Shown in pieces: positions 6,800 to 24,166 of a DNA stretch of 33,472 nt. The DNA comes from Hyphomicrobiales bacterium. Lineage in GTDB: Bacteria > Pseudomonadota > Alphaproteobacteria > Rhizobiales > JAJFHB01. The DNA is taken from contig JAJFHL010000101.1 of NCBI GenBank assembly GCA_021775615.1, positions 1 through 33,472 on the forward strand. Reading direction: 5' to 3'. Each line of letters opens with the position of its first letter. Position 1 is the first letter of the stretch. The notes beneath the pieces were generated by a model. It searched no databases. It was not told the origin of the DNA and saw only the letters and a program-made list of their open reading frames with translations. The translations under genes were made by a program, and so were the position numbers.

Positions 6800-6883
6800 T
6801 CACTGCTGATACTTCTTCGGCGGCTGCGGATTGTTGGCCGGGTTCGTGTCGTGCTTGGTGAGTTTGGTCACCATGTCCCCTCC
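6800..6883 (-). pseudogene. 3'-terminal remnant of the 147-residue orphan gene
   Basis: Read on the minus strand, this stretch encodes the last 27 codons and stop of a protein matching the C-terminus of the intact gene at 10930-11373 (GGDMVTKLTKHDTNP then NNPQPPKKYQQ). By eye, 26 of 27 residues and 79 of 84 bases agree. Upstream of it the homology stops and the sequence becomes part of a thioesterase-like fragment. There is no start codon or N-terminal part, so it is a remnant. It forms one arm of a direct repeat with 10930-11013. Confidence 0.85.
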
Positions 6884-6893
6884 GCAGACTTGC

Positions 6894-7315
6894 GAAATCG
6901 CACCGGCAGCAGGTCTGATGAACTGGCTCCAGCGCTATGAGTTCCGCTTCGTCGAAGGGACGCCGACTTTTTCCAAGACGCCGTTTGCCGAGCCGGCCAG
7001 CTCGCACTCCCTTTGGTGGGTTTCAGATCAGCCGCCACGTCCATTGGATTATCTGTCCCTGGCGGCGATTTCGGACAGCTTCTTTCTCCGCCTCCTGCAT
7101 GTGCGCGGGACCTTTGGCCCCATGGGCACCGTCTCGCTCAGCACCTACTTCCACGCAACACCTGAAGAGCTGGCCGAACAGGGCACGGCGGCGCTCCTCG
7201 GGGCCGCCCGCGCCAAGCGCTTCAACGGCCGGTTCATGACCAGCACATGGAGTTGTGGGGCAGGAGCGGCGCCCTACTCGCCACCGGCAGCCAGATTGTC
7301 TGGTACAAGGAATAG
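6894..7315 (+). pseudogene. Frameshifted C-terminal copy of the thioesterase
   Basis: From EIAPAAGLMNWLQRYEFRF onward this frame matches the C-terminal half of the thioesterase at 3777-4598 residue for residue, with many conservative changes. At about 7235 one C is missing relative to the intact gene: intact TTC-CAT, here TTCAT. After the shift the next frame continues the homology (HDQHMELWG to TGSQIVWYKE) and ends at TAG 7313-7315. The N-terminal hotdog half and any start signal are absent. It is therefore a truncated, frameshifted duplicate, fused directly to the orphan-gene remnant. Confidence 0.88.
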
Positions 7316-7588: not shown

Positions 7589-9076
7589 ATGCAAACTCGG
7601 CAGCTCCCCGTCACGATGCAATCAACCGTTGAAGACTCAGAAGACTCAATAGCAATGAGCACTATCGAAAATCGCGATGCCCCCCGCAGAAAGCTGTCCA
7701 TGACAGCCGTTGTCGGCGATCGGAACTGGGAGAACAGCATAGACTGCGTTGTCTCGGACGGAAGCCAGACCGGATGCCGGCTCAAGTCGGATCGCATCAC
7801 CGAGCTGCCTGACGAAATCTATGTCAAGATAGCGAGCTTGAAGCAGCCTATCAAAGGCAACATCGTCTGGCGAAGAGCCGATGCAGCAGGTGTTCAATTT
7901 CAATGGGACCGCTCGCAAAAAAGCGACGATCGCCCGAAGCAAACCCCAAAAACCGAGTTCTCCGCGGTCCTCTCCGATCGCCAGGGGCAAGCCAAAGTCA
8001 ACTGTTTGGTCCAGCATGCCAGCGCGTCGGGCTGTTTGCTGATCGCCGACGACATCGCCGCCCTCCCGGACGAGATCAGCTTGAAGCCGGAGGGCGTTAG
8101 CGCCTCGGTTGCGGGACGCATCGTCTGGCGCAATGACAACGTGGCCGGCGTGCGGTTCGTCTATAAGGACGCCAAGGCATCGCACGCCACCGCCGGGTCG
8201 GACGCCGATGAACACTCCAAGGGCCCTGCCGCATCCGCCGATCCGGATCAAAACCTTGCGAAACACAGCTCCAAACTTGGTGAAGAGACCGACGAGCTTC
8301 TGACGCTCATCGAGGCCACGGTCGACTCAGCTGGAGCGTTGGGACGTTCAATCGATGACGTCGAGTCCACACTGCGCCAGATCCCCAACTCCAACAAGTT
8401 CAAGACAGTCGTTTCGTCTCTTGTCGATGTATCGCGGGAAATGAGCGAGACCAACATCGCATTGACGCAACAGCTCAGCAATTCCGGGCAGCAGATCAAG
8501 GAGATTCACGACAAGCTTGAAGCGGTTCGCCACAAATCTCTGACGGCTGCCTTGACGGAGGCCACCGATCGCTTCGGCTTCGATCCCGAGCTGGAGCAGA
8601 TGATTGCCGCATCCGAAAGCAGCGGCCAACCGCTGAGTCTCGTGGTCATCGGTATCGATCATTTCAAGCAGTTCAATGACAGTTTCGGCCATCAAACCGG
8701 AGATCAGGTGTTGAAGATGGTCGCCGACCAGATCAGGCAGGGTGTGAGAGACACCGATTTGGTCGCACAATCCGGTGGCGAGGAGTTTGCGGTCATTCTG
8801 CCCAACGCGCCGCCTGAGAAGGGCGCATTGCTCGCAGACAGGGTACGCCAGCAAATCTCCGGGAAGGAACTCTTCAAAAAGGCGACAAACCAAAGTCTTG
8901 GAAACGTAACCCTTTCCGCTGGTGTCGCAGGCAGCAGGCCGGGCGACACCGCCGCCTCACTCACCGCACGCGCCGACGGCTTCCTTACCGAAGCCAAACG
9001 CGCCGGCCGCAACCGCGTGGAGGGAGATGCGAGTGCGGGCGCCGGTATGGAAAGCAGCACCGCTGCGAGCGGGTGA
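7589..9076 (+). CDS. Diguanylate cyclase with two N-terminal PilZ-like domains
   Basis: 495 residues. The first PilZ domain (about 29-107) has both c-di-GMP motifs: RxxxR as Arg29/Arg33 and DxSxxG as DGSQTG at 57-62. The second (about 122-194) keeps the fold pattern (SGCLLIADDIAALPDEI, then AGRIVWRNDNVAGVRF), but the RxxxR motif is lost and the other motif starts with His. A helical linker with likely coiled coil (230-315) leads to the GGDEF domain. There GGEEF is at 396-400, IDHFKQFND near 356 and an inhibitory I-site RDTD at 387-390, so it should make c-di-GMP and be product-inhibited. The usual DxLTxLxNRR entry motif is degenerate. In-frame starts at 7616 and 7655 are possible; 7655 would put the first PilZ motif close to the N-terminus. 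Confidence 0.88.
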   Translation: MQTRQLPVTMQSTVEDSEDSIAMSTIENRDAPRRKLSMTAVVGDRNWENSIDCVVSDGSQTGCRLKSDRITELPDEIYVKIASLKQPIKGNIVWRRADAAGVQFQWDRSQKSDDRPKQTPKTEFSAVLSDRQGQAKVNCLVQHASASGCLLIADDIAALPDEISLKPEGVSASVAGRIVWRNDNVAGVRFVYKDAKASHATAGSDADEHSKGPAASADPDQNLAKHSSKLGEETDELLTLIEATVDSAGALGRSIDDVESTLRQIPNSNKFKTVVSSLVDVSREMSETNIALTQQLSNSGQQIKEIHDKLEAVRHKSLTAALTEATDRFGFDPELEQMIAASESSGQPLSLVVIGIDHFKQFNDSFGHQTGDQVLKMVADQIRQGVRDTDLVAQSGGEEFAVILPNAPPEKGALLADRVRQQISGKELFKKATNQSLGNVTLSAGVAGSRPGDTAASLTARADGFLTEAKRAGRNRVEGDASAGAGMESSTAASG

Positions 9077-9249
9077 TCGGGATGAAGTTAGGCGTTATCA
9101 ACTACCGTTTCTTAAGGCCCGCCAACATATGCTGCATACGAATGTTTTTGCCGTGTGCCGCTACGCCGCCGCTGGTCCGCGCTGCGGACAACAGACGGAG
9201 TTTGCAGGCCTCCCCGTGACGGCTCACCGGACAACATGGAACGCCCACA

Positions 9250-10365
9250 ATGAACTTCATGCGTCGACCTGCTGAACGATCTCCGCGCCCCAAGGACAAA
9301 GCTACGTCCATCAGGATGGATGCAGTCCTCCTCGGGCTGTTCGGTGCCGCAGCGTATCTGTTTTCAGTCAACGTTGACGGATTCGAGGCGGTGCATGAGT
9401 TCAGCAGGGCGCACGAGGATTGGGAAATCGACGAAGTCGTCACGGCGCTTCTTATTTTCCTGCTTGGGCTGTCGGCCTTTACGGTCAGACGCCTGTTCGA
9501 ACTGAAGGACGAGATCACTCAGAGAAAGATCGCGAAGAGAGAGCTCATCTCATACCAGGATAATCTGCAGAAAACCTTGGATGAGGCGACCGAGCAATTG
9601 AGAATCAAGGCGGAGGAAGCAGAACGGGCACTGGACAGGGAAGTGGAGCTCAACCAGGTCCAGCGTCAGTTTATTTCACTGGCTTCCCACGAGTTCCGGA
9701 CGCCGCTGGCCATTATCGACGCCACGGCGCAACGAATTCAAATACGCGCAACCCGGCTGACCCCCGAAGATCTCACCAAGAGATGCCACGACATTCGAAC
9801 CGCGGTCAAACGCATGTCCAAGCTCATGGAGACCACCCTTTCTTCGTCTCGTCTGGATGCGGGTGAGCTCTCCATAAACGCCGCACCCTGCGATATCAGG
9901 AGCCTGGTGCTGGAAGTCTGCACGTCGCACCAGGATCTCGCCGGCTCTCACGTCATCACGTGCGACGTGGCCGACATCCCCGACGCGATCAATGCGGACG
10001 CCGACTCGGTCCGCCAGATGCTTACGAACCTGCTGTCGAACGCCATCAAGTATTCACCCGCATCGCCGGACATTCAGGTCAAAGCCTTGATAGACGGCGA
10101 CCAGGTGGTCATCCAGGTGAAGGATCACGGGGTCGGCATATCGCAGGAAGATCTGCCTAAAATGTGCAATCGATTTTTCCGCGCCGGGACCTCGACCGGC
10201 ATCGCGGGCACCGGCCTCGGCCTTCATATCGTGAAGACACTGGCGGAAATGCACGGCGGATCGATTGGCATCGAGAGCGAAGCCGGTGAAGGCAGCACCT
10301 TTACGCTCCGGCTACCGGTACACGGTCCCGCTGATGCCGCAGGCTCAACGACCAAAGCCGCATGA
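9250..10365 (+). CDS. Membrane sensor histidine kinase
   Basis: 371 residues. Two transmembrane helices (about 23-42 and 62-80) enclose a short periplasmic loop of about 20 residues. A coiled-coil signalling helix (83-135) follows, then the dimerisation/phosphoacceptor domain with SHEFRTPL (His147). The HATPase domain has LLSNAIKYSP (N box), DHGVGI (G1), the FRAGTSTGIAGTGLGL segment (F and G2 boxes) and a terminal EGSTFTLRLP strand. The tiny periplasmic loop suggests sensing in the membrane or through a partner rather than by a large ligand domain. It lies 36 bp before the response regulator, its likely cognate, and after the c-di-GMP cyclase. Confidence 0.93.
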   Translation: MNFMRRPAERSPRPKDKATSIRMDAVLLGLFGAAAYLFSVNVDGFEAVHEFSRAHEDWEIDEVVTALLIFLLGLSAFTVRRLFELKDEITQRKIAKRELISYQDNLQKTLDEATEQLRIKAEEAERALDREVELNQVQRQFISLASHEFRTPLAIIDATAQRIQIRATRLTPEDLTKRCHDIRTAVKRMSKLMETTLSSSRLDAGELSINAAPCDIRSLVLEVCTSHQDLAGSHVITCDVADIPDAINADADSVRQMLTNLLSNAIKYSPASPDIQVKALIDGDQVVIQVKDHGVGISQEDLPKMCNRFFRAGTSTGIAGTGLGLHIVKTLAEMHGGSIGIESEAGEGSTFTLRLPVHGPADAAGSTTKAA

Positions 10366-10400
10366 ACCATGATTGAGACACGACCAAGGGAAACAGGAGA

Positions 10401-10832
10401 ATGACAACACTGCTTTGCATAGAAGATGAGCCGGTGATGCGCGAAGCCATCGCAGAGACACTCGAAGACGAGGGCTATGACGTCCTGCGGGCCTGCGACG
10501 GCCAGGAGGGGCTGGAAACCCTCTTGGACCACAAGCCCGATCTGGTGGTGTGTGACATCACCATGCCCAACAAGGACGGATATCAGCTGCTCAAAGAGGT
10601 TCGCTGCATGGATCAGATCATTGGCGAAACGCCCTTCATCTTCCTGACCGCACTGGCGGACAAGCAGGATGTTCTCGACGGCCTGAACCAGGGCGCCGAC
10701 GACTACATCGCCAAGCCTGTCGATTTCGATCTCCTCAAGGCGAAGATCGCATCGCGGTTGCGGCAGATCGCGCGTTTCAGGCAGCAGCGCGACTCCGAGC
10801 AGCAAACCTCCTGGTACCTGGAACCGGCCTGA
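10401..10832 (+). CDS. Single-domain (receiver-only) response regulator
   Basis: 143 residues, essentially one CheY-like receiver domain plus a short helical tail. The acidic pair is in CIEDEP (Glu8-Asp9), the phosphoacceptor is Asp52 in VVCDITMPNKDG, the switch Thr is Thr83 in FLTALAD and the Lys is Lys105 in DDYIAKPVD. There is no DNA-binding output domain, so it acts by protein contact, perhaps on the neighbouring diguanylate cyclase or as a phospho-relay. A strong ACAGGAGA ribosome-binding site precedes the ATG. It is the last gene of the 7.6-10.8 kb signalling unit and is convergent with the orphan gene. Confidence 0.93.
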   Translation: MTTLLCIEDEPVMREAIAETLEDEGYDVLRACDGQEGLETLLDHKPDLVVCDITMPNKDGYQLLKEVRCMDQIIGETPFIFLTALADKQDVLDGLNQGADDYIAKPVDFDLLKAKIASRLRQIARFRQQRDSEQQTSWYLEPA

Positions 10833-10929: not shown

Positions 10930-11373
10930 TCACTGCTGATATTTTTTCGGCGGCTGCGGATTGTTGGCCGGGTTCGTGTCGTGCTTGGTGAGCCTCGTCA
11001 CCATGTCCCCTCCCGCAAGCGGTTTCAGGTCCGCCTCCAACGGGTCCGCCTTTTCGCGCGCATAGACCTCGTCGCCATCGACATAAAGCGTAAACGCCTT
11101 GATGTATTTGGCTTTTTTTGCGGGATCTTCGATCGTGTCCTTGGTCCACTGATAGAGCGGATACTTGTCCGTACCGTTCTGCTCGGCTTCCGCCACATAG
11201 CCCGCGAAGGCGTCAAACTGGCAACTCAGCTTGGCATTGTGCTTCTTGAGGATATCCGCCAGCGGCCTGATCGCCGCGTTGTCAGGATCGCGCCGGGCAA
11301 TTTCGGCGAACTCGTCACTCAGATTGATCCGAACCTGGAACAGCCACTCATCGCTCATTACATCGCTCATCAC
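10930..11373 (-). CDS. Conserved-looking orphan protein, 147 residues
   Basis: I do not recognise this family. The protein is soluble, with no signal peptide or membrane helix. It begins with a WLFQVRINLSDEFAEIARRD segment and has a mixed helical centre with one Cys (KLSCQFDAFAGYVAEAE). Its tail is Asn/Pro-rich (TNPANNPQPPKKYQQ). A good AGAGGAA site lies upstream of GTG 11373; ATG at 11370 or 11358 are alternative starts. It is the last gene of the minus-strand operon that includes the redox cyclase. A remnant of its 3' end is kept at 6800-6883 with synonymous changes and one Arg-to-Lys change, which argues that this reading frame is a real protein. Confidence 0.7.
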   Translation of the reverse strand: MMSDVMSDEWLFQVRINLSDEFAEIARRDPDNAAIRPLADILKKHNAKLSCQFDAFAGYVAEAEQNGTDKYPLYQWTKDTIEDPAKKAKYIKAFTLYVDGDEVYAREKADPLEADLKPLAGGDMVTRLTKHDTNPANNPQPPKKYQQ

Positions 11374-11415
11374 TATATTTCCTCTTTGGTCAGGCGACCC
11401 TGGATCACAATCGAC

Positions 11416-11786
11416 TTAGGTGGTTACATCCAAGTCGGCAAGCATGATCGGTCGTACTATTCTGGTGCGGGATCGAACAGCAGACCCGTTGTCCAACAGC
11501 GGATCAAGCCGTGAAGGCGCGCGCTTCTTGAACTCCTTAATCCGCTCCTGCCATGTGCCATCTGATTGGGGCGTTGATGCGACGGTGATGACCCGCCTGT
11601 AGTCGTTGAGGCCGCCGATCACGAGCCGGTTCGCCGCTGCCGGATCGGAAACCCGGTTCTCGACGATGCGCCTGACGGCGAGCGTTTCGGGCGGCCGCGG
11701 TGCGCGCGCGCCTCGTCTGCGAAGGCGGCAAAGTCAAACCGGGCGAACAGGCTCTCCATACTGAACGTCGCCACTTTCAGCTTCAT
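11416..11786 (-). pseudogene. Broken endonuclease/exonuclease/phosphatase family gene
   Basis: The ATG at 11786 overlaps the cyclase stop (ATGA). The first codons give MKLKVATFSMESLFARFDF, the start typical of EEP-fold nucleases and phosphatases (usually VATFNVENLF). Around 11700 the frame shifts; the new frame reads ETLAVRRIVENRVSDPAAAN and then LVIGGLNDYRRV, resembling the family's GDLNDY segment with Asp changed to Gly. It then runs DGTWQERIKEFKKRAP to a stop at 11416. Intact family members have roughly 200 more residues between these two parts and a longer C-terminus with the catalytic His. The gene therefore has an internal deletion, a frameshift and a lost 3' end. Confidence 0.7.
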
Positions 11787-13507
11787 GGCGCGGCGCTCCC
11801 GGCGGCCTCCGCCTCGGCGGGAGCCTCCAGTTCCATGTCCACGGCACGCCCGAACGCCAGGATCGGAACTTCCTCCTCGCGGCCCTTCACCGCGATGCGT
11901 TCGGGGCGGCCTCCGGCAACGGACAGACCTGAGACCTGCACAGTCGTCTCGGAAATGACGAGCTGGCAGGTGAGCTCCTTGCAGGCGCTTTCCAGCCGGC
12001 TGGCGGTGTTGACCGTGTCGCCGAGCGCGGTGATGCGTTGCGTGGCGCCAGATGCGCCGCCCACCCCGATACGGCCAAGAATGGCGGGCCCGGTGTGAAT
12101 GCCGATGCCGATGTTCAGAGGTTTGTCGAGATCGGCCGCCAGGCTCTTGTTGAGCGCGGACAACACGCCGCTCATGGCCCGTGCTGCCGCCAGGGCATTT
12201 CGCGCGCCCTCTTCCGCACCCCTTTCCATACCGAAGATGGCCATGATGCCGTCGCCGATGAACTTGTCCACATAGCCTCCAGAGTCCGAGATCGCATCGG
12301 ACATCTGGCCGAGATACTGGTTGAGCACGAAGACCACATCGTAGGGCAGCCTGGCTTCCGACAGGGCGGTGAATCCGCGGATGTCGGCGAACATGATCGC
12401 AACGGTCTGCTCGACACCCCACAGGTACTTGTCCTGGACCGCCACGTCGGTGACCGTGATCTGCCGCGCCGGCAGCAGGGTTGCGACACAGACATCGGAT
12501 CCCGGCGAAACCTGGCATGCGAGGCGCACATTGGCGCCAGCGCCCACCCGCTCCAGCACCTTGCGTTCGGCATCGCCTGCTTCGGGCAGCGCCTCGAGGC
12601 CTTCGAGAACGCGCACCCGGCAGGTCGAGCAGCGCGCCCGTCCACCGCACACCGACGCATGGGGGACCCCGTTTGAGCGGCTGATCTCCAGCAAGGTGGG
12701 GCCAATTTCGCTGGTGACCGTACGGCCGTCCGCATAGGCAACCTTCACGGTCGGCCGGAACCGGTCAAACACCGAGCGCCCCAACCGATAGACCACGGCT
12801 ACGCCAACCACGAAGAGACACGCCCAGAGCGCCGTGTCCATCGCCCCCACGATGAACTCGATTTGATCTCTCTTATATGGAGACGTGTAGAGGCCTTCCG
12901 CCCGGGCTTCGCGGCCGGCAACCGCAAACCCCGCGAATGCCAGCACCGGAACAGTGACGGCAAGTCCGTTCAGCAGCCATACAAAGCGGCGATACCAGGG
13001 TGCCATGCGCAGCCAGAAATGGATGCCCACGCACCCATGCACCCACACGATCAGGATCAGGGCGCCCTGTCGATAGGCCTCGGCCGGCCACATCGCCCAC
13101 AAGGCGTAGGCATAATTGTCATCGATGCCGAATATTTCATGCGGCATCCGGGTGCCGAGCACGTGCCGCAGCAAAAGCAACGGTATCGCCAGTCCGAACA
13201 CCAGCTGCACCGCCTCCCAAAGGGTCATGCGCCAGCCCCGGCGCTGCACGAACTTGAGCAGGGCGAAATAGATGTGAAGCAGCAATGCGCCATAGAGCGC
13301 AATGGTCCCCGGCGGGCTGCGCCAGATTGCCGTGCGGACATTGCGCATGGCTTCCATGGCGTCGATCGATATCAGTCCGAGGGCGTGGTTGACCAGGTGG
13401 GCGGCAGCGAACGCGAACAGGACCAGCCCCGAATAGAGCCGGATCTTCTGTCGCCACGAGCCCGCCCCCGGGGCCGGCGGAACCTTGACTGCATCAGCAT
13501 CGGCCAT
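11783..13507 (-). CDS. cyaC: CyaC-like redox adenylate cyclase: diheme membrane anchor, 2Fe-2S domain, class III cyclase
   Basis: 574 residues. The N-terminus has about six membrane helices with histidines placed like heme-b ligands of succinate/fumarate reductase anchors: His37/41, His78, His115, His157/163. A plant-type ferredoxin domain follows, with Cys287, Cys293, Cys296 and Cys331. The C-terminal class III cyclase has metal-binding Asp375 (FADIRGF) and Asp419 (FIGDG), Lys415 for adenine, Thr493 in the class IIIb position, and transition-state Asn500/Arg504 (NTASR). The architecture is that of Sinorhizobium meliloti CyaC, which is controlled by the quinone redox state; that regulation is known for CyaC and inferred here. 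It lies 22 bp after the cyclic-nucleotide-binding gene, so maker and sensor are co-transcribed. Confidence 0.9.
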   Translation of the reverse strand: MADADAVKVPPAPGAGSWRQKIRLYSGLVLFAFAAAHLVNHALGLISIDAMEAMRNVRTAIWRSPPGTIALYGALLLHIYFALLKFVQRRGWRMTLWEAVQLVFGLAIPLLLLRHVLGTRMPHEIFGIDDNYAYALWAMWPAEAYRQGALILIVWVHGCVGIHFWLRMAPWYRRFVWLLNGLAVTVPVLAFAGFAVAGREARAEGLYTSPYKRDQIEFIVGAMDTALWACLFVVGVAVVYRLGRSVFDRFRPTVKVAYADGRTVTSEIGPTLLEISRSNGVPHASVCGGRARCSTCRVRVLEGLEALPEAGDAERKVLERVGAGANVRLACQVSPGSDVCVATLLPARQITVTDVAVQDKYLWGVEQTVAIMFADIRGFTALSEARLPYDVVFVLNQYLGQMSDAISDSGGYVDKFIGDGIMAIFGMERGAEEGARNALAAARAMSGVLSALNKSLAADLDKPLNIGIGIHTGPAILGRIGVGGASGATQRITALGDTVNTASRLESACKELTCQLVISETTVQVSGLSVAGGRPERIAVKGREEEVPILAFGRAVDMELEAPAEAEAAGSAAP

Positions 13508-13529
13508 AAGGCGATCACGATACCAGGGC

Positions 13530-14000
13530 TCAATTGCCCTTGGCGTGCTCCAGCTCTTCGCGGCAGGCGGTGAGATCGTCGGTGGTTTTTTGCAGGCGCT
13601 GGGCGAGGACCCTGGTCACTTCGACAGCCATCTCCGGAAACTCCGTCATCAGGCGCAGGAAGTGCTCTTTCTGGATTTTGAGGGTCTCGATCCTGTCCTT
13701 CGCCTTAACGGTTGCGGTGCGCGGAACATCGCACAAAATGGCAATATCGCCGACAAAGGCGTTCTTTTTCAGGGTCACCAGCAACTGTTCGCCGTCATCG
13801 GTGTCTTTCAGAACGTCGACCGCGCCATCAATGATGACGTAGGCCGCATCCCCCGCATCGCCTTCATGGAACAGCTCCTGGCCGGCGGCGAAGGCCATCC
13901 TGTCGGACGTAAACGCAAGCAGCTTGAGCCTGGCCGGTTCGATATTGGCAAATAGCGGTATCCTCCTTAGGACATCGACTTCATCCTGCAGACCGGCCAT
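13530..14000 (-). CDS. Stand-alone cyclic-nucleotide-binding domain protein
   Basis: 156 residues from ATG 14000, which has a strong AGGAGG (14011-14016) ten bases upstream. A longer frame from 14036 would include this site in the coding sequence. The fold is a single CRP-type cNMP domain: LFANIEPARLKLLAF, HEGDAGDAAYVIIDGAVDV and the phosphate-binding cassette FVGDIAILCDVPRTATV, where Arg contacts the cyclic phosphate and the usual Glu is Asp. There is no helix-turn-helix, only a C-terminal helix (LAQRLQKTTDDLTACREELEHA), so it is not a transcription factor. It lies between the ABC-like gene and the adenylate cyclase and is the obvious cAMP receptor of the module. Confidence 0.88.
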   Translation of the reverse strand: MAGLQDEVDVLRRIPLFANIEPARLKLLAFTSDRMAFAAGQELFHEGDAGDAAYVIIDGAVDVLKDTDDGEQLLVTLKKNAFVGDIAILCDVPRTATVKAKDRIETLKIQKEHFLRLMTEFPEMAVEVTRVLAQRLQKTTDDLTACREELEHAKGN

Positions 14001-14010
14001 GGCGTTTACT

Positions 14011-14016
14011 CCTCCT
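14011..14016 (-). promoter_or_regulatory. AGGAGG ribosome-binding site deciding the cNMP gene start
   Basis: A consensus Shine-Dalgarno lies ten bases before ATG 14000 on the minus strand. It places the start twelve codons inside the longest open frame. Confidence 0.75.
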
Positions 14017-14042
14017 AGCGTCTCATCTTGTAGCACGCCGCG

Positions 14043-16772
14043 TCAGCTTTGTTCGATAAGCTCAACAAGCCTGCCTCCCGACTGACGCAATTCCTGGGGC
14101 GTGCCCTGTTCAGCCACGGTGCCGTCTTCGAAGACCAGGGCATGATCGAACTGAAGGGCGCTGCCGGGATTCTGCAGAACCCAGAAAACGCCGCTGCCTG
14201 CCCGGCCGTCGCCCGACCTGGTGGCGGCGAGAACACGTTCGACCATCTGGTCCTGGCTTGACGCGTTCAAACTGGAAAACGCGCGATTGACGATCAGCAA
14301 ATCCGGCCGCTTGAGCAGGGCCCTTGCAAGAACCATTTTTTGGCGCTGAACCGACGTCAGCCGTTTGCCGCTCGATCCGACATCAAAATTGAGCCCGACC
14401 TCGAAGACCGCATCGCGGAGATCAAGTTCCTTGAGCACCGTCTGGATCGCGGCATGCACCCTGCCCTGGGCATCGGCGATGCCATAGGCGACGCGGCCAA
14501 GCAGCACATTGTCCTGCAGCGACGAGGCGGCGTTGTAGGTTTCGGGTTCGTAAAACTCGATGGCGTCGGCAAGTTCCTGCGGCAGGTCGTCGGCAAATTT
14601 CTTGCGCGCCTCGAGCAGCCGTGCCTCGAGATCGTCGGTCATGAGACCGAGACGGTGTCTTGGCTCGATATAGGCGAATGGCAGCTTCAGGAGCATGGTC
14701 AGATCGTCGCCCTTGGTGCGCTCGAAGTCGAGCCCCGCCGTGCGGCCGATAACGGCCTCGTATTCCGGCATTTCCTCCGACGTCATGAAGCTCAGTTGTT
14801 CGAAGAACGGGTGGTCTTCCGGCAGGCCCGAGAACAGCTCGATGACGGTTCGGGCAATCTGCTGGCCCATGCCGAACAGCTCCTTGTCGAGCCCGGTCGC
14901 GGCAAGAACCTCGAGGAAATAGGCGTTCGAGGCGAGATTCTCGTGTGCAAACGCATCGCCCACCGCGGTACCGAACAGCAGGTTCTCGGCAAGCGTCGCA
15001 TGGTGATTGTACTTCGCGGGATCGAACGGCTCGACCAGATCCGACAATGGCGGTTGCTCCAGACGCTCGCGCAGTTCGCGGCGCGCGGTCATGACCTGTT
15101 CTGCCAGTTCGGGATCTTTCGCCGGGTCGATCTTGCCGCGCAGTCCGAGTTCAAAAATGTCCTCGTCGAGGTCCACCGTCCGCAGGACTTCAACGATACG
15201 GTCGTCCAGCGCATCGGGCCCGTCGACGCCGGCCGCTTCGTAGTCAACCCAGTCGGCCTCGATGTCCAGCAGGGTGTTGGCCGAGCGTTTGAACTCCGAG
15301 AGTTCCAGCGCCGTTCTGGTTTCTCCCTCGGGGTCGCGCAACGGAACATGGCGCAGACCGTAAAGCAGGCTGTCGCGGATGCTGGCCTGTTTCAGAAAGG
15401 GGTCCGGTCCGACATAGGCGAGCCGTCGGCCAAGCACCGCCTCGCTCATGTCTTCGACGTCCTTGCCGCCCAACTCGATACGTCCGCTTGTCGGCAGAAG
15501 GAGCTTGGCAAGCACCTCGCCGGTGGACTCCGCGCCGCTGTTGACAAGCCCGACCACAGCGATCTGGTCGCCGAGCGGCACGCTAAACGAGGTGCGCCGG
15601 ATGAGCGTCGCCCCGGTGTCGTCAGTCACTCCCAGATTGGCCGCGTTGATGGCGCCGGTCAGCGGCGGCGACGGATCGGCAACCGGCTCCTGCATCTCCG
15701 GATCGATCATGTTTTCGGCTTCGAACTGCTCGATGACCTGGGAGTACTTGATCTGCACATCGAGCCGCGACTGATCCCAGTTGATGAGCTCGCGGATCGG
15801 CGACGGCAAATCCTTATAGGCGGCAATCACCGCCACAAGCTGTCCGAGATTCATGTCGCCGCTGATCACCGCGATGCCGCCGACCAGGTAGAACAGGAAC
15901 GGCGTGAACTGGGCCAGGAAGTTGTTGAGGAACTTGATGAAGTATTTTCTCTGATAGAGCTCGTACCGGATGAAAAAAATCCGGCTCAGGCGGGTGGCGA
16001 CTTCGGCGCGCTCGTAGTTCGAAGCATCGTTGACGTGGACTTCCTGAATGCCGTCGACAATTTCGCCGACCCGGCCGGCAAGAGCCCGCGACTCCAGCTG
16101 GCGCTGCCGTGACAGTTCGAGCAGCCGCCGCCGCAGCGCCGGGATGATGATGGCCTGCGCCAGCACGACGACCAGCGCAACGCATCCCAGAATGAAGTTC
16201 TGCGCCAGAATGAACCCCATGGCGACCAAGGCCAACCCACCCTGAAACACCGGGGTGACAAAGGCGTCGCCGATAAAGGTGCCCAGCGGCTCGACCTCGT
16301 CCTTGATCATGGTCGCCATCTGCGAAGCCTGAATGCGGCGGAACTGAGATTGGGGGAACCGCAGGATCCGGTCCAAAAGGCTGTAGCGCAAACGGCGCAG
16401 CATGCGCTCACCGATCCGGCCCTTGTAGGTATTGATGTAGTATTTGAAGAGGCCGTTGACACAGACAAGCAGCAGGAAGGCGCCGCACAGCGCATAGAGG
16501 TATGGAAAGCGCCCCAGCGGAATGCCATCGAACAGCCGCAGCATACCGTCCGAGGATATCCAGGCAGGAACCTCGAAATGGAGCTGCAGGAAAGGTTGCT
16601 TTGCCCCTGGAATTTCGAAGCCGTCCGAGCCCTCGATCGGACCGTTCACGATCTTCTTCGGCAATTCATACGCATAGAAGGCGAACGGCATCGAGGCGAC
16701 GACGATGAACAGCGTCCAGATTTGGTCCGCCCTCGAATACCGCCAGACATACTTGAATAAATTCGGTTCCAT
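14043..16772 (-). CDS. ABC-exporter-like membrane protein with degenerate ATPase domain
   Basis: 909 residues, versus about 600 for a normal half-exporter. Residues 1-340 form an ABC type-I exporter membrane domain with the usual coupling-helix region. The nucleotide-binding domain starts near 375 but lacks every catalytic motif: the Walker A equivalent is GLVNSGAEST (408-417, Lys to Glu), the Q-loop is YVGPDPFLK (no Gln), the signature is LTSVQRQ (805-811) instead of LSGGQRQ, Walker B reads LLIVNRAFSSLN (825-836, Asp-Glu to Asn-Arg), and the H-loop His is lost (WVLQNPG). About 270 extra residues separate Walker A from the signature and contain repeats of the xLxENLLFG segment (near 465, 594 and 752). 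It probably does not hydrolyse ATP and may act as a scaffold or cAMP-responsive membrane protein. It is the first gene of the operon. Confidence 0.85.
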   Translation of the reverse strand: MEPNLFKYVWRYSRADQIWTLFIVVASMPFAFYAYELPKKIVNGPIEGSDGFEIPGAKQPFLQLHFEVPAWISSDGMLRLFDGIPLGRFPYLYALCGAFLLLVCVNGLFKYYINTYKGRIGERMLRRLRYSLLDRILRFPQSQFRRIQASQMATMIKDEVEPLGTFIGDAFVTPVFQGGLALVAMGFILAQNFILGCVALVVVLAQAIIIPALRRRLLELSRQRQLESRALAGRVGEIVDGIQEVHVNDASNYERAEVATRLSRIFFIRYELYQRKYFIKFLNNFLAQFTPFLFYLVGGIAVISGDMNLGQLVAVIAAYKDLPSPIRELINWDQSRLDVQIKYSQVIEQFEAENMIDPEMQEPVADPSPPLTGAINAANLGVTDDTGATLIRRTSFSVPLGDQIAVVGLVNSGAESTGEVLAKLLLPTSGRIELGGKDVEDMSEAVLGRRLAYVGPDPFLKQASIRDSLLYGLRHVPLRDPEGETRTALELSEFKRSANTLLDIEADWVDYEAAGVDGPDALDDRIVEVLRTVDLDEDIFELGLRGKIDPAKDPELAEQVMTARRELRERLEQPPLSDLVEPFDPAKYNHHATLAENLLFGTAVGDAFAHENLASNAYFLEVLAATGLDKELFGMGQQIARTVIELFSGLPEDHPFFEQLSFMTSEEMPEYEAVIGRTAGLDFERTKGDDLTMLLKLPFAYIEPRHRLGLMTDDLEARLLEARKKFADDLPQELADAIEFYEPETYNAASSLQDNVLLGRVAYGIADAQGRVHAAIQTVLKELDLRDAVFEVGLNFDVGSSGKRLTSVQRQKMVLARALLKRPDLLIVNRAFSSLNASSQDQMVERVLAATRSGDGRAGSGVFWVLQNPGSALQFDHALVFEDGTVAEQGTPQELRQSGGRLVELIEQS

Positions 16773-17301
16773 ATCCTGCCATCGCCGAACCGGCAGGCGC
16801 CGGTCTGCCTCGCCGTTAGCCCCGGGCGCCCCTGCCGAGAACGCCGTCCCAAGCCCGCGACTATGACGGCAGTTTCAACACCTTGCAAGATCAACCTATG
16901 GCGGTTCCCACACACGCATTCCGGCACGAATCGGGCGACTTTCCGGCTGGTGCCCGCATTCCGCCACGGTCGCTCCCAGAAATGACCACTTTGATGGCAG
17001 GTTTTCGCCTTGGACGTGATGTATCGCAGGTGTTGGCGGAAGCGAATGGGGCGACACTTGAACGCCTGGATCGTTCGCGTCGCGCCATAGCGGCACAATC
17101 TGAACCGCATGGGGCAACCGGTAGGCCGACACCCTGCCGCGGTGCACCCTTTCGGATTTGCGTCGCCCAGCGAGAGGCAGCCACGCGCCAACCGCGAGGT
17201 GGCTTGAGAGAAATGGCGCGGAGCCTTCGGCAGGACCGCCCGAAAGGGACGACTTGAGAGCCGAACGAGACCGCGCGACACAGCACGAAGGGGACCATGC
17301 T
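16773..17301. other. 529-bp divergent intergenic region, no convincing gene
   Basis: This is the gap between the start of the ABC-like gene and the start of the actin-like gene. The open frames inside it have Arg/Pro-rich, shadow-like composition and no recognisable domain. It must carry the promoters of both units. I see one promoter candidate for the minus strand (16860-16888) and none that is strong for the plus strand. A GAAGGGGACC site sits before the actin-like start. Confidence 0.6.
16860..16888 (-). promoter_or_regulatory. Candidate promoter of the ABC-cNMP-CyaC operon
   Basis: On the minus strand TTGCAA (16883-16888) and CATAGT (16860-16865) are separated by 17 bp; each matches four of six consensus bases. 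It would give a leader of about 80 nt before the ABC-like start codon. Confidence 0.35.
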
Positions 17302-18426
17302 ATGTCACGCAGACCACCTGCCAGCACGGCAAAACAGCCTGAAACAACGGACGCAAGCAAGCCGGAAGCGGACGCAAGCAATGGCGCCGCTCCGTCCGGC
17401 GATGAACTCGGAAACCAGGACATGAACATGGAGCACAGCGTAGCAGGACACCTTGGTCTGGATCTCGGAACCAGCAGGATCGTGCTGGCATCGACACAGG
17501 GCGACCGCACCCAGTACAAGACCGAGCTCAACGCCTTCGTGTCCCTGCCCTACTCGAAGATGACCAAGGCGATGCTGGAGCGTGAAAACATCCACCACAC
17601 CAAGTCGGGCAACGAAATTCTCGCCTTCGGCAACCGGGTCGACGAGTTTGCCAATATTCTCGGTGGCGACACCCGCCGGCCGATGAAGACCGGCGTCCTC
17701 AATCCCAACGAACCGCGCAACATCGAGATGCTGGCCCTGGCGCTCGGCAAATTGTGCGGCCGCGCCAAGAACGGCGAGAAGATCTGCTTCTCCGTGCCGA
17801 GCGGCGCGAACGGTTCCGACGCCGAAGTGATCTATCACGAACAGTCGATCCGCAAGGTGCTTGAGGATCTCGGCTATGAAGTGCACAGCCTCAACGAGGG
17901 TCTCGCGGTCATCATCGCCGAACTGAAGGACCACGACTTCACCGGCATCGGCATCTCGTTCGGCGCCGGCATGTGCAACGTGTGCCTGTCCTATCTCGGC
18001 CTGCCGGTCATCGCCTTTTCGACCACCCGCGGCGGCGACTACATCGACTATTCGGCCTCCTCGGTCACCGGCGAAACACCAACGACGGTACGCCTCACCA
18101 AGGAAAGCGACGCCTTCAAGCTTAACGGCAAGGCCAGCACCAGCGTCGATCAGGCCCTGTCCGTCTACTACCGCGACATCGTTCAGACCGTGGTGCTCAC
18201 GCTCGAACGCATCTTGAACAACCACAAACAGCTGCCGCCCTTCCGCGGCCCGCTTCCGGTTGTGTTCGGCGGCGGCACCGCCATGGTCGAGGGTTTCCAC
18301 GATGAATTGCGCAAGGCCCTGCAGAAGGTGAAACTGCCGATTGAGATCATGGATGTCCGCAAGGCCAAGTACGGCATGAACAGCACCGCAACGGGCGCGC
18401 TCGTCGCTGCCCTTGCGGATATGTGA
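17302..18426 (+). CDS. Actin-like (MreB/MamK/ParM superfamily) ATPase
   Basis: 374 residues. After a low-complexity, Ala/Ser/Pro-rich N-terminus of about 40 residues comes the phosphate-1 loop LGLDLGTSRIVLAS (51-64), connect-1 NEGLAVIIAEL (198-208), phosphate-2 GIGISFGAGMCNV (215-227), GGDYIDYSAS and the adenosine motif VVFGGGTAMVEGF (320-332). This is a full actin/Hsp70 ATPase core, closer in size to bacterial actins than to Hsp70. ATG 17302 follows GAAGGGGACC; an internal ATG at 17422 would remove the tail, and a longer frame from 17158 has no support. It is transcribed divergently from the ABC-cNMP-CyaC operon. It probably forms filaments or a membrane-associated complex; whether it binds that operon's products is inference. 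Confidence 0.85.
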   Translation: MSRRPPASTAKQPETTDASKPEADASNGAAPSGDELGNQDMNMEHSVAGHLGLDLGTSRIVLASTQGDRTQYKTELNAFVSLPYSKMTKAMLERENIHHTKSGNEILAFGNRVDEFANILGGDTRRPMKTGVLNPNEPRNIEMLALALGKLCGRAKNGEKICFSVPSGANGSDAEVIYHEQSIRKVLEDLGYEVHSLNEGLAVIIAELKDHDFTGIGISFGAGMCNVCLSYLGLPVIAFSTTRGGDYIDYSASSVTGETPTTVRLTKESDAFKLNGKASTSVDQALSVYYRDIVQTVVLTLERILNNHKQLPPFRGPLPVVFGGGTAMVEGFHDELRKALQKVKLPIEIMDVRKAKYGMNSTATGALVAALADM

Positions 18427-21433: not shown

Positions 21434-22687
21434 TCAGAACCGGTCCACCCGGTAAGGCGCCATGTCGACATCGCCCGGCCGGCCGGAGATCATATCGGCG
21501 ATCAGGCGGCCGGTGGTCGGACCCCAGGTGAGGCCGAGGTGGCCGTGACCGAAGGCGTAGAACAGATTGCCGAAATGCGGTGAACCCGAGATCACCGGAA
21601 TGAAATCGGGCAGGCCGGGGCGCGGCCCCATCCATTTTTCGCCGCTTGTATCCTTGAGACCGGGCAGGATGCGTTTCGCCTTGTCCACCAGATAGTCCGA
21701 ACGACGGTAGTCGGGAGCGGCATCCACCCCGGCAAATTCAACCGCACCGCCAATGCGCAACCCCTGCGGCAAGGGCGTGATGGCGATGCCCGCCGACTCA
21801 TAGACCAACTGGCGTTTGAGCGAGATGCCGGTGTTCGGCATGGTCTTGTTGTAGCCGCGGTCAGCCTCGAGCGGCACGATGCTGCCAAGCGGCCTGGCGA
21901 GGCGATGCGACCAGGCGCCCGCGGCAATCACCAGATGATCGCCTAAGAGCGCCGATCCATCCGCCAGATGAACCGAGCTCACGGTGCGGCCGGTGGTTTC
22001 GACCCTGCGCACGTCGCCCCCGATCAGGGTCCCTCCGTCGCTCTGGAATCGCTCGGCCATCCGCGTCACCAGCGCATAAGGATCCTTGATGTTGCGCCAG
22101 CCGTCCATGATGAGGGCGCAGCCGGCATCCGCCGAGACATCCGGCTCCAGCTCGTGGATTTCCGCACCGCTGATCTTTCTGTAGGGAAATCCATGTTCGG
22201 CGCGCAGATCCCACTGCCACTTGGCTTTGCGGAACTCGTGCTCATGGTCATAGATGGCGGCGCAGAAGTCGCAGAACATCATGTCCTCGGCCTCGATCGC
22301 CCTGAGAGCCATGGGGAAGTCCTCGCGCGCCCGGTGACTGAGGCAGGCCGCCGCCTCCGCGAGAGCGGAAACCCTGCTTGCCCTGCCAGCCGCCATGAAA
22401 CGCAACAACCACGGCATGACAGTCGGAAAATACGATGGCCGGATCGACAGGGGGCCTTTCGGGTCGAGCAGCCACTTCGGAACCGTGGCCATCAGACCGG
22501 GCTTGGAGATCGGCACGATCTCCGACAACGCAACGCCGGCCGCATTGCCGTAGGAGCAGCCCTTTCCCGGCCCGAGCCGGTCGACCACGGTGACGTCGTG
22601 CCCGTCGCGCTGCAGGAACACGGCACAGCTCATGCCGACGATTCCGGCGCCGACAATCGTCACTTTGCGAGGTTCTGCAGAAGCCAT
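21434..22687 (-). CDS. DadA-like FAD-dependent D-amino acid dehydrogenase family protein
   Basis: 417 residues from ATG 22687; the longer open frame to 22882 overlaps the divergent gene and lacks conserved sequence. The N-terminal dinucleotide fold is KVTIVGAGIVGMSCAVFLQRDGHDVTVVDR (Gly13, 15, 18 and the acidic end of the second strand). The DadA-like GKGCSYGNAAGVALSEIVPISKPG segment follows. The C-terminus has MGPRPGLPDFIPVISGSPHFGNLFYAFGHGHLGLTWGP, the flavin-binding end typical of DadA. Such enzymes oxidise D-amino acids to imino acids and pass electrons to the respiratory chain. It is divergent from a second FAD oxidoreductase at 22832, with a shared 144-bp promoter region. Confidence 0.88.
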   Translation of the reverse strand: MASAEPRKVTIVGAGIVGMSCAVFLQRDGHDVTVVDRLGPGKGCSYGNAAGVALSEIVPISKPGLMATVPKWLLDPKGPLSIRPSYFPTVMPWLLRFMAAGRASRVSALAEAAACLSHRAREDFPMALRAIEAEDMMFCDFCAAIYDHEHEFRKAKWQWDLRAEHGFPYRKISGAEIHELEPDVSADAGCALIMDGWRNIKDPYALVTRMAERFQSDGGTLIGGDVRRVETTGRTVSSVHLADGSALLGDHLVIAAGAWSHRLARPLGSIVPLEADRGYNKTMPNTGISLKRQLVYESAGIAITPLPQGLRIGGAVEFAGVDAAPDYRRSDYLVDKAKRILPGLKDTSGEKWMGPRPGLPDFIPVISGSPHFGNLFYAFGHGHLGLTWGPTTGRLIADMISGRPGDVDMAPYRVDRF

Positions 22688-22831
22688 CGTCACATCCACT
22701 GACCGGCGCTTCCATGTCGCGTTGACCGTGCACCGGCGTCCATGGCAAGGAAGCAATTCAGCGCGCGTCATACATTTGCGCCGGGACAGATGCCAGCCAT
22801 TTATTGACGCCCAGTTCAGGAGCGCAAACCC

Positions 22832-24166
22832 ATGCGGCCTCAAGTGGACATTGTCGAAAGCGACGCGGAGCTTCCCGAGCAAGCCGACGCGGTGGTGATC
22901 GGCGGCGGCATCATCGGTGTTTCGACCGCCTGGACCCTGGCCCGCCGCGGACTTTCGGTGGTTCTGTGCGAGAAGGGCCGGATCGGCGGCGAGCAGTCAA
23001 GCCGCAACTGGGGTTTTTGCCGCCAGCAGGGCCGCGACCCCCGCGAGATCCCCCTGATCATCGAAAGCCTGCGCATCTGGCGCGGCATCGAGAAAGACAT
23101 CGAAGCCCCGGTCGGGTTCAAGCAGGCGGGCTGCCTCTATCTGGCCGAAACCGACGACCAGGCGAAAGGTTACGAAGACTGGCTCGAACACGCCAAGCCC
23201 TATCAGCTCGACTCCAGGCTGGTGTCTGGCGACGAACTCGACGGCCTCATGCCCGGCAGTTCGGTGCCTTACAAGGCGGCACTCTATACCGCCAGCGACG
23301 GCCGCGCCGAACCTTCCAAGGCCGCCCCGGCAATTGCCCAGGCCGCCCGGCGGGCCGGCGCGGAGATCTTCACCGGCTGCGCGGTTCGTGGCATCGAGAC
23401 CTCCGGCGGGCGGGTCTGCGCAGCAGTGACCGAGAAGGGCACCATCAAGACGGACACGGTGGTTCTCGCCGGCGGCGCCTGGTCGCGGCTGTTCTGCGGC
23501 AACAACGGTCTTTCGCTGCCTCAGCTGAAGGTTTTGTCGTCCGTCATGCGCACCAGGCCCATGCCGCTGGTGACCGAGAACGCGGTCTGGGCGCCGGGCT
23601 ATGCCTACCGGCGGCGTGACGATGGCGGCTACACCATCGCCCACGGCCTGAGCATCGTGGTCGATGTGGTGCCCGACAGTTTCAAACTGGCGCACCGGTT
23701 CACGGCCGCCATGTGGAAGGAACAGAAGTCCCTGCATCTGCGGCTCGGCCGGCAGTTCTGGCGGGAGCTCACCACCGCGGGACGCTGGGAATTGGACGAG
23801 ACGACCCCCTTCGAAAAGACCCGCGTGCTCGACCCCGACCCCGCAACGAAGATCCTGAACAAGGCCATCAAGGGGCTGAGGCGCGCCCTGCCCGCATTCG
23901 ACAAGGCGGAAATCGCCGAACGCTGGGCCGGCTATATCGACGTGACGCCGGACGAGGTGCCCGTCATATCCGAGGTCGACGAAGTGCCCGGCCTGATCAT
24001 CGCCACCGGCTTTTCCGGCCATGGTTTCGGCATCGGCCCCGGCGCCGGCCGGCTGGCGGCCGATCTGGCATGCGGAACCGAACCCATCGTCGATGCAACG
24101 CCGTTCCGCTTCTCGCGCTTCCGCGGCGGCAGGAGCGAGGCGTCATCCGCGCCGGTGCCGGTCTAG
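22832..24166 (+). CDS. FAD-dependent oxidoreductase of the DAO family
   Basis: 444 residues. The Rossmann motif is AVVIGGGIIGVSTAWTLARRGLSVVLCEKG (Gly24, 26, 29). The next loop is GGEQSSRNWGFCRQQGRDPREIPLI, an unusual version of the GxxSxxN flavin loop with Ser-Ser-Arg-Asn. The C-terminus DEVPVISEVDEVPGLIIATGFSGHGFGIGPGAGRLAADLA closes the flavin site. Relatives oxidise glycine, sarcosine, gamma-glutamylputrescine or other secondary and primary amines; the substrate is not evident. CAGGAG lies before the ATG. It is 45 bp longer at its N-terminus than most DAO proteins. It is likely co-transcribed with the MBL-fold hydrolase that follows. Confidence 0.87.
   Translation: MRPQVDIVESDAELPEQADAVVIGGGIIGVSTAWTLARRGLSVVLCEKGRIGGEQSSRNWGFCRQQGRDPREIPLIIESLRIWRGIEKDIEAPVGFKQAGCLYLAETDDQAKGYEDWLEHAKPYQLDSRLVSGDELDGLMPGSSVPYKAALYTASDGRAEPSKAAPAIAQAARRAGAEIFTGCAVRGIETSGGRVCAAVTEKGTIKTDTVVLAGGAWSRLFCGNNGLSLPQLKVLSSVMRTRPMPLVTENAVWAPGYAYRRRDDGGYTIAHGLSIVVDVVPDSFKLAHRFTAAMWKEQKSLHLRLGRQFWRELTTAGRWELDETTPFEKTRVLDPDPATKILNKAIKGLRRALPAFDKAEIAERWAGYIDVTPDEVPVISEVDEVPGLIIATGFSGHGFGIGPGAGRLAADLACGTEPIVDATPFRFSRFRGGRSEASSAPVPV

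Follow-up and report, generated by a model that had tools for sequence, protein, structure and literature searches.

The window analysed here is a stretch of 33,472 nt forming contig JAJFHL010000101.1 of a Hyphomicrobiales bacterium (GCA_021775615.1, genome G000 below). It carries an actin-like gene transcribed divergently from three genes that encode an ABC-exporter-like membrane protein, a stand-alone cyclic nucleotide (cNMP)-binding protein and a class III cyclase with a ferredoxin domain (Table 1). An earlier, sequence-only reading had combined these genes and a short 'orphan' open reading frame (ORF) into a single five-part module. The cyclase, cNMP and ABC-like genes do form a real and widely conserved set, but the actin gene falls outside it, and the five-part module was rejected, since its units are unequally distributed and adjoin one another in one family only. 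We consider it rather probable that the locus brings together two separately inherited units, namely a horizontally acquired volactin (unit A) and an Alphaproteobacteria-wide membrane signalling operon (unit B) that would convert redox state into cyclic AMP (cAMP).

Table 1. Features of the locus, in window coordinates
Feature	Position	Strand	Details
Volactin-family actin homologue	17302..18426	+	374 aa; about 47 low-confidence N-terminal residues, then actin fold; PF25216 252.9 bits, AF2, VIA-align
Divergent intergenic region	16773..17301		529 bp
Degenerate ABC-exporter-like membrane protein	14043..16772	-	909 aa; PF00664 67.4 bits, PF00005 36.2 bits (partial)
Stand-alone cyclic-nucleotide-binding protein	13530..14036	-	168 aa; PF00027 75.2 bits
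Class III cyclase with [2Fe-2S] ferredoxin domain	11783..13507	-	PF00211 78.5 bits, PF00111 34.2 bits
'Orphan' ORF of the earlier reading	10930..11373	-	147 aa; no Pfam/NCBIfam match

Organization of the locus and family of the actin-like protein

The operon proper spans 11783-16772, where the three genes of unit B follow one another on the - strand with gaps of 6 and 22 bp. Most of the individual assignments made earlier were upheld by Pfam. The 'pseudo-ABC' protein combines ABC_membrane with a partial ABC_tran whose ATPase motif residues are replaced, PF00027 is the sole Pfam domain of the cNMP protein, and the cyclase carries Fer2 and Guanylate_cyc. The actin-like gene, which matches Pfam Volactin on the + strand, is divergent from the operon as had been described, with its start moved to 17302. 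The longest ORF covers 17158-18426 (+); the ATG at 17302 was preferred because a purine-rich AAGGGGACC stretch stands ahead of it and the immediate upstream sequence is kept in G495, a genome of the same genus. The intergenic region shares short patches with G495, one of them directly ahead of the volactin start. It contains no CRP-type (cAMP receptor protein) palindrome (TGTGA-N6-TCACA, up to 2 mismatches), and CRP control of the divergent promoter was rejected, the whole window giving 6 matches against 10.3 expected.

The orphan ORF did not survive as a part of the module. It is separated from the cyclase by 409 bp, belongs to no recognized family, is unmatched by tblastn (1e-5) in the stretches fetched from G495 and from G421 (another genome of the family), and has as its only relative in its own genome a 35-residue fragment at 6803-6907. 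It was rejected as an operon member on these grounds, and may be no gene at all. Its last 35 codons (10933-11037) are repeated in that fragment, 4 kb off, with 74% identity, as a small repeated piece of DNA. Beside the operon, on the opposite strand, genes for a PilZ-PilZ-GGDEF protein, a histidine kinase and a response regulator stand in series (7589-10832, Pfam assignments). They are unmatched in the fetched G421 stretch and in the G495 stretch, the latter ending within the PilZ position.

On the basis of its profile match, the actin-like gene encodes a bacterial member of the volactin family. The PF25216 score in Table 1 compares with a cut-off of 35 and extends over 319/321 positions. Identity amounts to 37-46% with the acidobacterial loci and to 37-40% with the archaeal alignment rows, among which VolA (HVO_2015), the volactin of Haloferax volcanii, is not included. 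The actin fold is common to MamK, BeeR, MreB, salactin and the window protein, and it is the profile scores that set the window protein apart. Identity as MamK, salactin or MreB was rejected, given 26.6 bits against NF040964 MamK (cut-off 400), 14.1 bits against salactin (cut-off 400) and no match to MreB_Mbl (PF06723) at E <= 0.01. A separate full MreB is encoded elsewhere in the window genome (C172, 484.6 bits). The AlphaFold2 (AF2) model of the window volactin is good apart from its first 47 residues (pLDDT 83.8, pTM 0.80). Its closest structures are MamK 5ljv (VIA-align Z 27.7, 295 residues, root-mean-square deviation 2.9) and BeeR (26.8), which are tied, with MreB next at 25.6; a sequence search against solved structures gave a best E of 0.22.

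Volactins were aligned as the window sequence plus 38 rows drawn from 37 of the 80 kept loci described below, L063 being excluded for a stop in the extended sequence. At the phosphate-2 motif Ser219 is invariant in 39/39 of these sequences and is replaced by Asp in the 4 MreB rows shown. This count is partly circular, as the loci were retrieved with two peptide patterns, one of which includes the serine; the volactins L039 and L040, found by tblastn, also carry it. The Ser-for-Asp signature derives from the present analysis and not from the literature. The Haloferax protein belongs to the same Pfam family, and a Haloferax row has the same signature. The window copy differs from haloarchaeal volactin by its bacterial host with an MreB of its own, by the N-terminal extension of about 47 residues, and by having no DUF7139 partner upstream. 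According to the accessible text of PMC10869688, Haloferax volactin forms dynamic filaments whose tips contact the membrane and which are needed for timely disk formation. Our literature searches reached only a minority of subscription papers and preprints. Within that scope volactin is studied in haloarchaea only, and no report of it in bacteria or viruses was found, in the accessible text of PMC10869688, PMC12050087, PMC12186497 and PMC7617734, and the word 'volactin' is absent from that of the salactin paper PMC10746226. Searches aimed at bacterial or phage volactins, and others aimed at the operon, brought up no paper on either subject.

Conservation of the cyclase, cNMP and ABC-like genes

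Relatives of the ABC-like protein (E <= 1e-60) are present in 69/199 genomes of the order sample and 130/385 of the class sample. The operon was surveyed in 47 ABC-like loci from 46 genomes, window included (7 first fetched and 40 chosen, two of them from one genome; the sample is not random). The cNMP gene stands directly downstream of the ABC-like gene in 46/47 loci, the exception, L190, being a shortened gene at a contig end. The phosphate-binding cassette of the window cNMP protein, FVGDIAILCDVPRTATV, keeps its arginine and has D where most relatives have E. The arginine is found in 42 of the 43 rows obtained from the 47 loci.

The ATPase motifs of the ABC-like protein were compared in 45 of the 47 loci (the shortened genes of L140 and L190 were excluded), with MsbA motif positions, as we take them to be, for reference. 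At the aligned columns of the window protein alanine replaces the Walker A lysine, asparagine the Walker B aspartate, arginine the catalytic glutamate and glutamine the H-loop histidine. The loss extends through the family: GK[ST] occurs at Walker A in 0/45 proteins, the Walker B aspartate is kept in 15/45 and the catalytic glutamate in 3/45, and the H-loop histidine is found in 0/44 readable rows, with a His one column further in 2 rows. Walker B is better preserved in distant members. Because the motifs are lost across the family examined, and not in the window copy alone, these proteins should not function as normal ATPases. The nucleotide-binding-domain-like part also contains a long insert between the Walker A and signature regions, within which two stretches, YNHHATLAENLLFG and YNAASSLQDNVLLG in the window, resemble the segment that follows the Q-loop; our guess is that they arose by internal duplication. 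The protein thus has in common with MsbA-type exporters an ABC_membrane region and a partial ABC_tran, and differs from them by the lost motifs, the insert and a best NCBIfam score of 147.7 bits against a cut-off of 602.

The cyclase is a less constant member of the set. In 22/47 loci a cyclase domain on the same strand starts no farther than about 5.2 kb downstream from the start of the ABC-like gene. Two others lie farther downstream (L168, L186), two nearby on the other strand (L173, L177), and upstream cyclase domains, both on the opposite strand, were seen in 2/47. Ten of the 22 align with the ferredoxin-type cyclase of the window, and 11 of the other 12 form one cluster of a different cyclase. 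In 20 ABC-cNMP loci (L156 to L188) the gene directly after the cNMP gene belongs to one other cluster, identified as a metallo-beta-lactamase (MBL)-fold hydrolase in the one copy scanned among them (L176) and in a more distant copy from G421; the second cyclase type lies farther downstream in 10 of these loci. The MBL-fold protein is a possible cAMP hydrolase.

Among the ferredoxin-type homologues, His 37, 41, 78, 115 and 157 of the window cyclase and its four Fer2 cysteines are invariant (10/10). The N-terminal part is histidine-rich and apparently membrane-embedded, as judged by eye from its segments, and its match to TIGR02046 is below threshold (13.6 bits, cut-off 96). The residues that we take to be the metal Asp, the substrate Lys and the transition-state Asn/Arg are present in the window cyclase and in 7 of its 9 other homologues. 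The closest functional precedent is the work on CyaC of Sinorhizobium meliloti, a quinone-responsive membrane adenylate cyclase for which, as far as the accessible text of PMC10463352 goes, Clr and CycR are named as partners in the title and no ABC-like protein is. Compared by features, the sequences being unaligned, both proteins unite a class III cyclase with a histidine-rich anchor, putative in the window protein. Redox input is plausible for the window protein, which adds the [2Fe-2S] domain; '2Fe-2S' and 'ferredoxin' do not occur in the main text of that paper.

Distribution, descent and partners of volactin

Contrary to the ABC-like gene, volactin is confined to 6/199 genomes of the order sample (E <= 0.001), namely G000, G495, G421, G420, G444 and G398, and PF25216 exceeded its cut-off in 1/385 genomes of the class, the window's own. 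A further 199 class genomes gave weak actin-fold matches under the cut-off, which were not counted. In the controls PF25216 matched 2/14 (Haloferax volcanii and E. coli), over the cut-off only in H. volcanii. G461, of the window's family, yielded no volactin; this genome is 71% complete, and its ABC-like gene runs off the end of a contig. Among named genomes 240 volactin relatives were confirmed by a scan, and the best 80 loci were retained. The hosts among these 80 are Alphaproteobacteria, Acidobacteria, Magnetobacteriaceae, Desulfobacterales, Patescibacteria, Archaeoglobaceae, one member of the Thermoplasmata and many haloarchaea. In one Magnetobacteriaceae genome (L068:8417-12783) two tandem volactins (249 and 272 bits) are followed by a caspase-domain protein, and three bacteria belonging to different phyla have a LepA gene (PF06421) no more than 4 kb from volactin (L055:2326-4128, L058:4779-6680, L068:14606-16387).

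In a tree of 43 rows the alphaproteobacterial volactins constitute one clade (100/100), which joins a terriglobial clade (95/85) and with it is nested among further Acidobacteria (96/90, then 97/92); a split supported at 100/100 divides bacterial from archaeal volactins. L010 (20 aa) was excluded from this tree, and long branches were flagged. As L014, a mistranslated row of 90 aa, was misplaced among the haloarchaea, the root was not used. This topology suggests that an alphaproteobacterial ancestor probably acquired volactin once, from or through Acidobacteria.

The genes that accompany volactin change with the lineage. In 52/59 archaeal loci, Archaeoglobaceae included (L072-L131 without L108), a DUF7139 relative is encoded on the same strand within 1.5 kb upstream; 2 of the 7 loci lacking it start less than 200 bp from the end of the stretch. 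The DUF7139 protein is a candidate membrane anchor of archaeal volactin and is not mentioned in the literature searched. In Acidobacteria, an Amidase_2 protein is encoded directly upstream of volactin in 9/9 loci (L058, L059, L061-L067), with the pattern H...H.D in 8/9 and, as judged by eye from the sequences, a putative membrane segment ahead of the amidase domain. A gene of a further sequence cluster was noticed upstream in 5/9 of these loci, the L066 member of this cluster having a SPOR domain. The DUF7139 gene and the acidobacterial amidase gene are both unmatched next to volactin in the alphaproteobacterial loci, the window included, and an upstream DUF7139 was not detected by tblastn (E <= 0.01) either in the window or across 20 bacterial volactin loci.

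The constant presence of the amidase, together with the position of the alphaproteobacterial clade beside the terriglobial one, raises a possibility compatible with two separately inherited units: the alphaproteobacterial volactin could, by analogy, steer cell-wall remodelling. We regard this role as rather unlikely, though less so than the other alternatives below. It is opposed by the amidase search, in which six alphaproteobacterial volactin genomes (G000, G421, G420, G444 and two Rhodospirillales) gave no clear homologue, the best match being 28% over 109 residues in G000 (E 2e-4) and the other five giving none.

Adjacency of the two units and the alternative explanations

A conserved neighbourhood of the actin-like gene and the operon was the check named beforehand for the module, and adjacency was found only in three genomes of the window's family (G000, G495 and G421). 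None of the other volactin loci fetched shows it. G420, G444 and G398 carry volactin and the ABC-like gene on separate contigs, in the first two genomes far from the ends of either contig. The ABC-like gene (E <= 1e-40) was detected in 3 of 16 named volactin genomes searched and had no match in the other 13, the Alphaproteobacteria L053, L057 and L060 among them (the completeness of these three is not stated). A lack of co-occurrence beyond a few close relatives had been named beforehand as the result that would refute the module, and for adjacency this is the result obtained. Within the family, comparison of 29 window ORFs with the 19-kb G421 stretch gave six clear matches: volactin, the three operon genes and two FAD oxidoreductases. 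The latter correspond to window 21434-22882 and 22832-24166, on the far side of volactin, and are unrelated to cAMP, so that plain synteny can account for the adjacency. In G421 a further gene, for a DAO-type FAD oxidoreductase, stands between the ABC-like gene and volactin. The locus is therefore partly syntenic as a whole, with several other neighbours gone.

These observations bear directly on the circuit proposed in the sequence-only reading, in which redox state sets cAMP, the cNMP protein signals to the ABC-like platform, and the platform anchors or regulates volactin filaments. Several facts are in keeping with it: adjacency holds in 3/3 volactin-bearing genomes of the window's family, the volactins of Archaea and Acidobacteria often have a specific partner beside them, as counted above, and the filament tips of the Haloferax protein reportedly touch the membrane (PMC10869688, accessible text). 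We nevertheless hold the circuit to be improbable, in view of the missing adjacency elsewhere, the gene that intervenes in G421, the two unrelated flanking genes that are likewise kept there, the divergent orientation, which excludes co-transcription, the intergenic region without a CRP-type site, and the three other alphaproteobacterial volactin genomes without an ABC-like match.

Some results weigh against two separate units as well. All six volactin genomes of the order sample possess the ABC-like gene, compared with 63 of the 193 others (Fisher p 0.0015, uncorrected for kinship), a co-occurrence that favours the circuit. The adjacency in G421 has outlasted divergence to 62% identity for the ABC-like protein and 79% for volactin, and the cupin, regulator, GST (glutathione S-transferase), kinase and other neighbours of the window are unmatched in the G421 stretch. 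The direction of transfer is read from nesting alone, because outgroup rooting is unreliable and the branches are long. As to unit B, substrate and catalytic residues are changed in two of the ten ferredoxin-type cyclases (L170, L171), the assignment of haem, as in a di-haem b anchor, rests on the conserved histidines and the sub-threshold TIGR02046 match, and the AF2 model of the ABC-like protein, built from 3 rows, was of too low confidence to bear on the platform idea (pLDDT 36.2).

It might also be supposed that bacterial volactin descends from a phage filament for partition or positioning, of which it would be a remnant. Volactin relatives are indeed abundant in IMG/VR contigs (L203-L282), where at least 580 were confirmed among the 600 pattern matches listed, and one is present in each of two uncultured-phage records of 595 and 485 kb (LR756511.1, LR745208.1). 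'Viral' is here the label of the source collections; 3 of ten flanking proteins scanned match PHROG families. The 6 viral proteins scanned all score above the PF25216 cut-off (227-287 bits), and one of the 6 has a weak match (40 bits) to PHROG 691, 'partition protein'. A second tree was built with 25 viral rows from the best 80 viral loci, L213 and L222 being excluded for mistranslation and L209 nearly empty. None of the 25 falls inside the clade of Alphaproteobacteria and Acidobacteria (95/93). The window volactin has no PHROG match, and no recognisable phage gene was found among 11 window ORFs scanned by Pfam. A phage origin appears as improbable as the circuit. The 2021 review of jumbo phages (PMC7824862) contains no whole-word actin, MreB, ParM or volactin. 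In L279 and L262 an ORF of 110 aa ends 3 bp ahead of volactin; it is possibly an adaptor, and the L279 copy has no PHROG or Pfam match.

Least likely of all, in our estimate, is a volactin filament shared across domains that has exchanged its membrane partner from lineage to lineage, with a DUF7139 membrane protein in archaea, a peptidoglycan amidase with an apparent membrane anchor in Acidobacteria and a cAMP-controlled pseudo-ABC protein in the window's family. In that case respiratory redox state would control a cytoskeletal filament via cAMP.

If the locus consists of two separately inherited units, as we favour, each would have a function of its own. The volactin would most likely bind ATP and polymerise into dynamic cytoplasmic filaments, by analogy with the haloarchaeal protein, and would work beside the cell's own MreB with a role in shape or internal organisation. 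In the operon, the membrane anchor and Fe-S domain of the cyclase would read the respiratory redox state, upon which cAMP would be made. The small cNMP protein is predicted to bind this cAMP and to relay the signal to the ABC-like protein, a putative non-hydrolysing, cAMP-gated membrane platform or regulator, docking of the receptor on it being suggested by the near-obligate gene pair.

A bacterial volactin beside MreB, acidobacterial copies next to a wall-amidase gene and viral copies allow this actin to be studied in peptidoglycan-walled cells. The class-wide pairing of a catalytically dead ABC protein with a predicted stand-alone cAMP receptor constitutes, for its part, a little-studied route through which Alphaproteobacteria may couple respiratory state to a response at the membrane.

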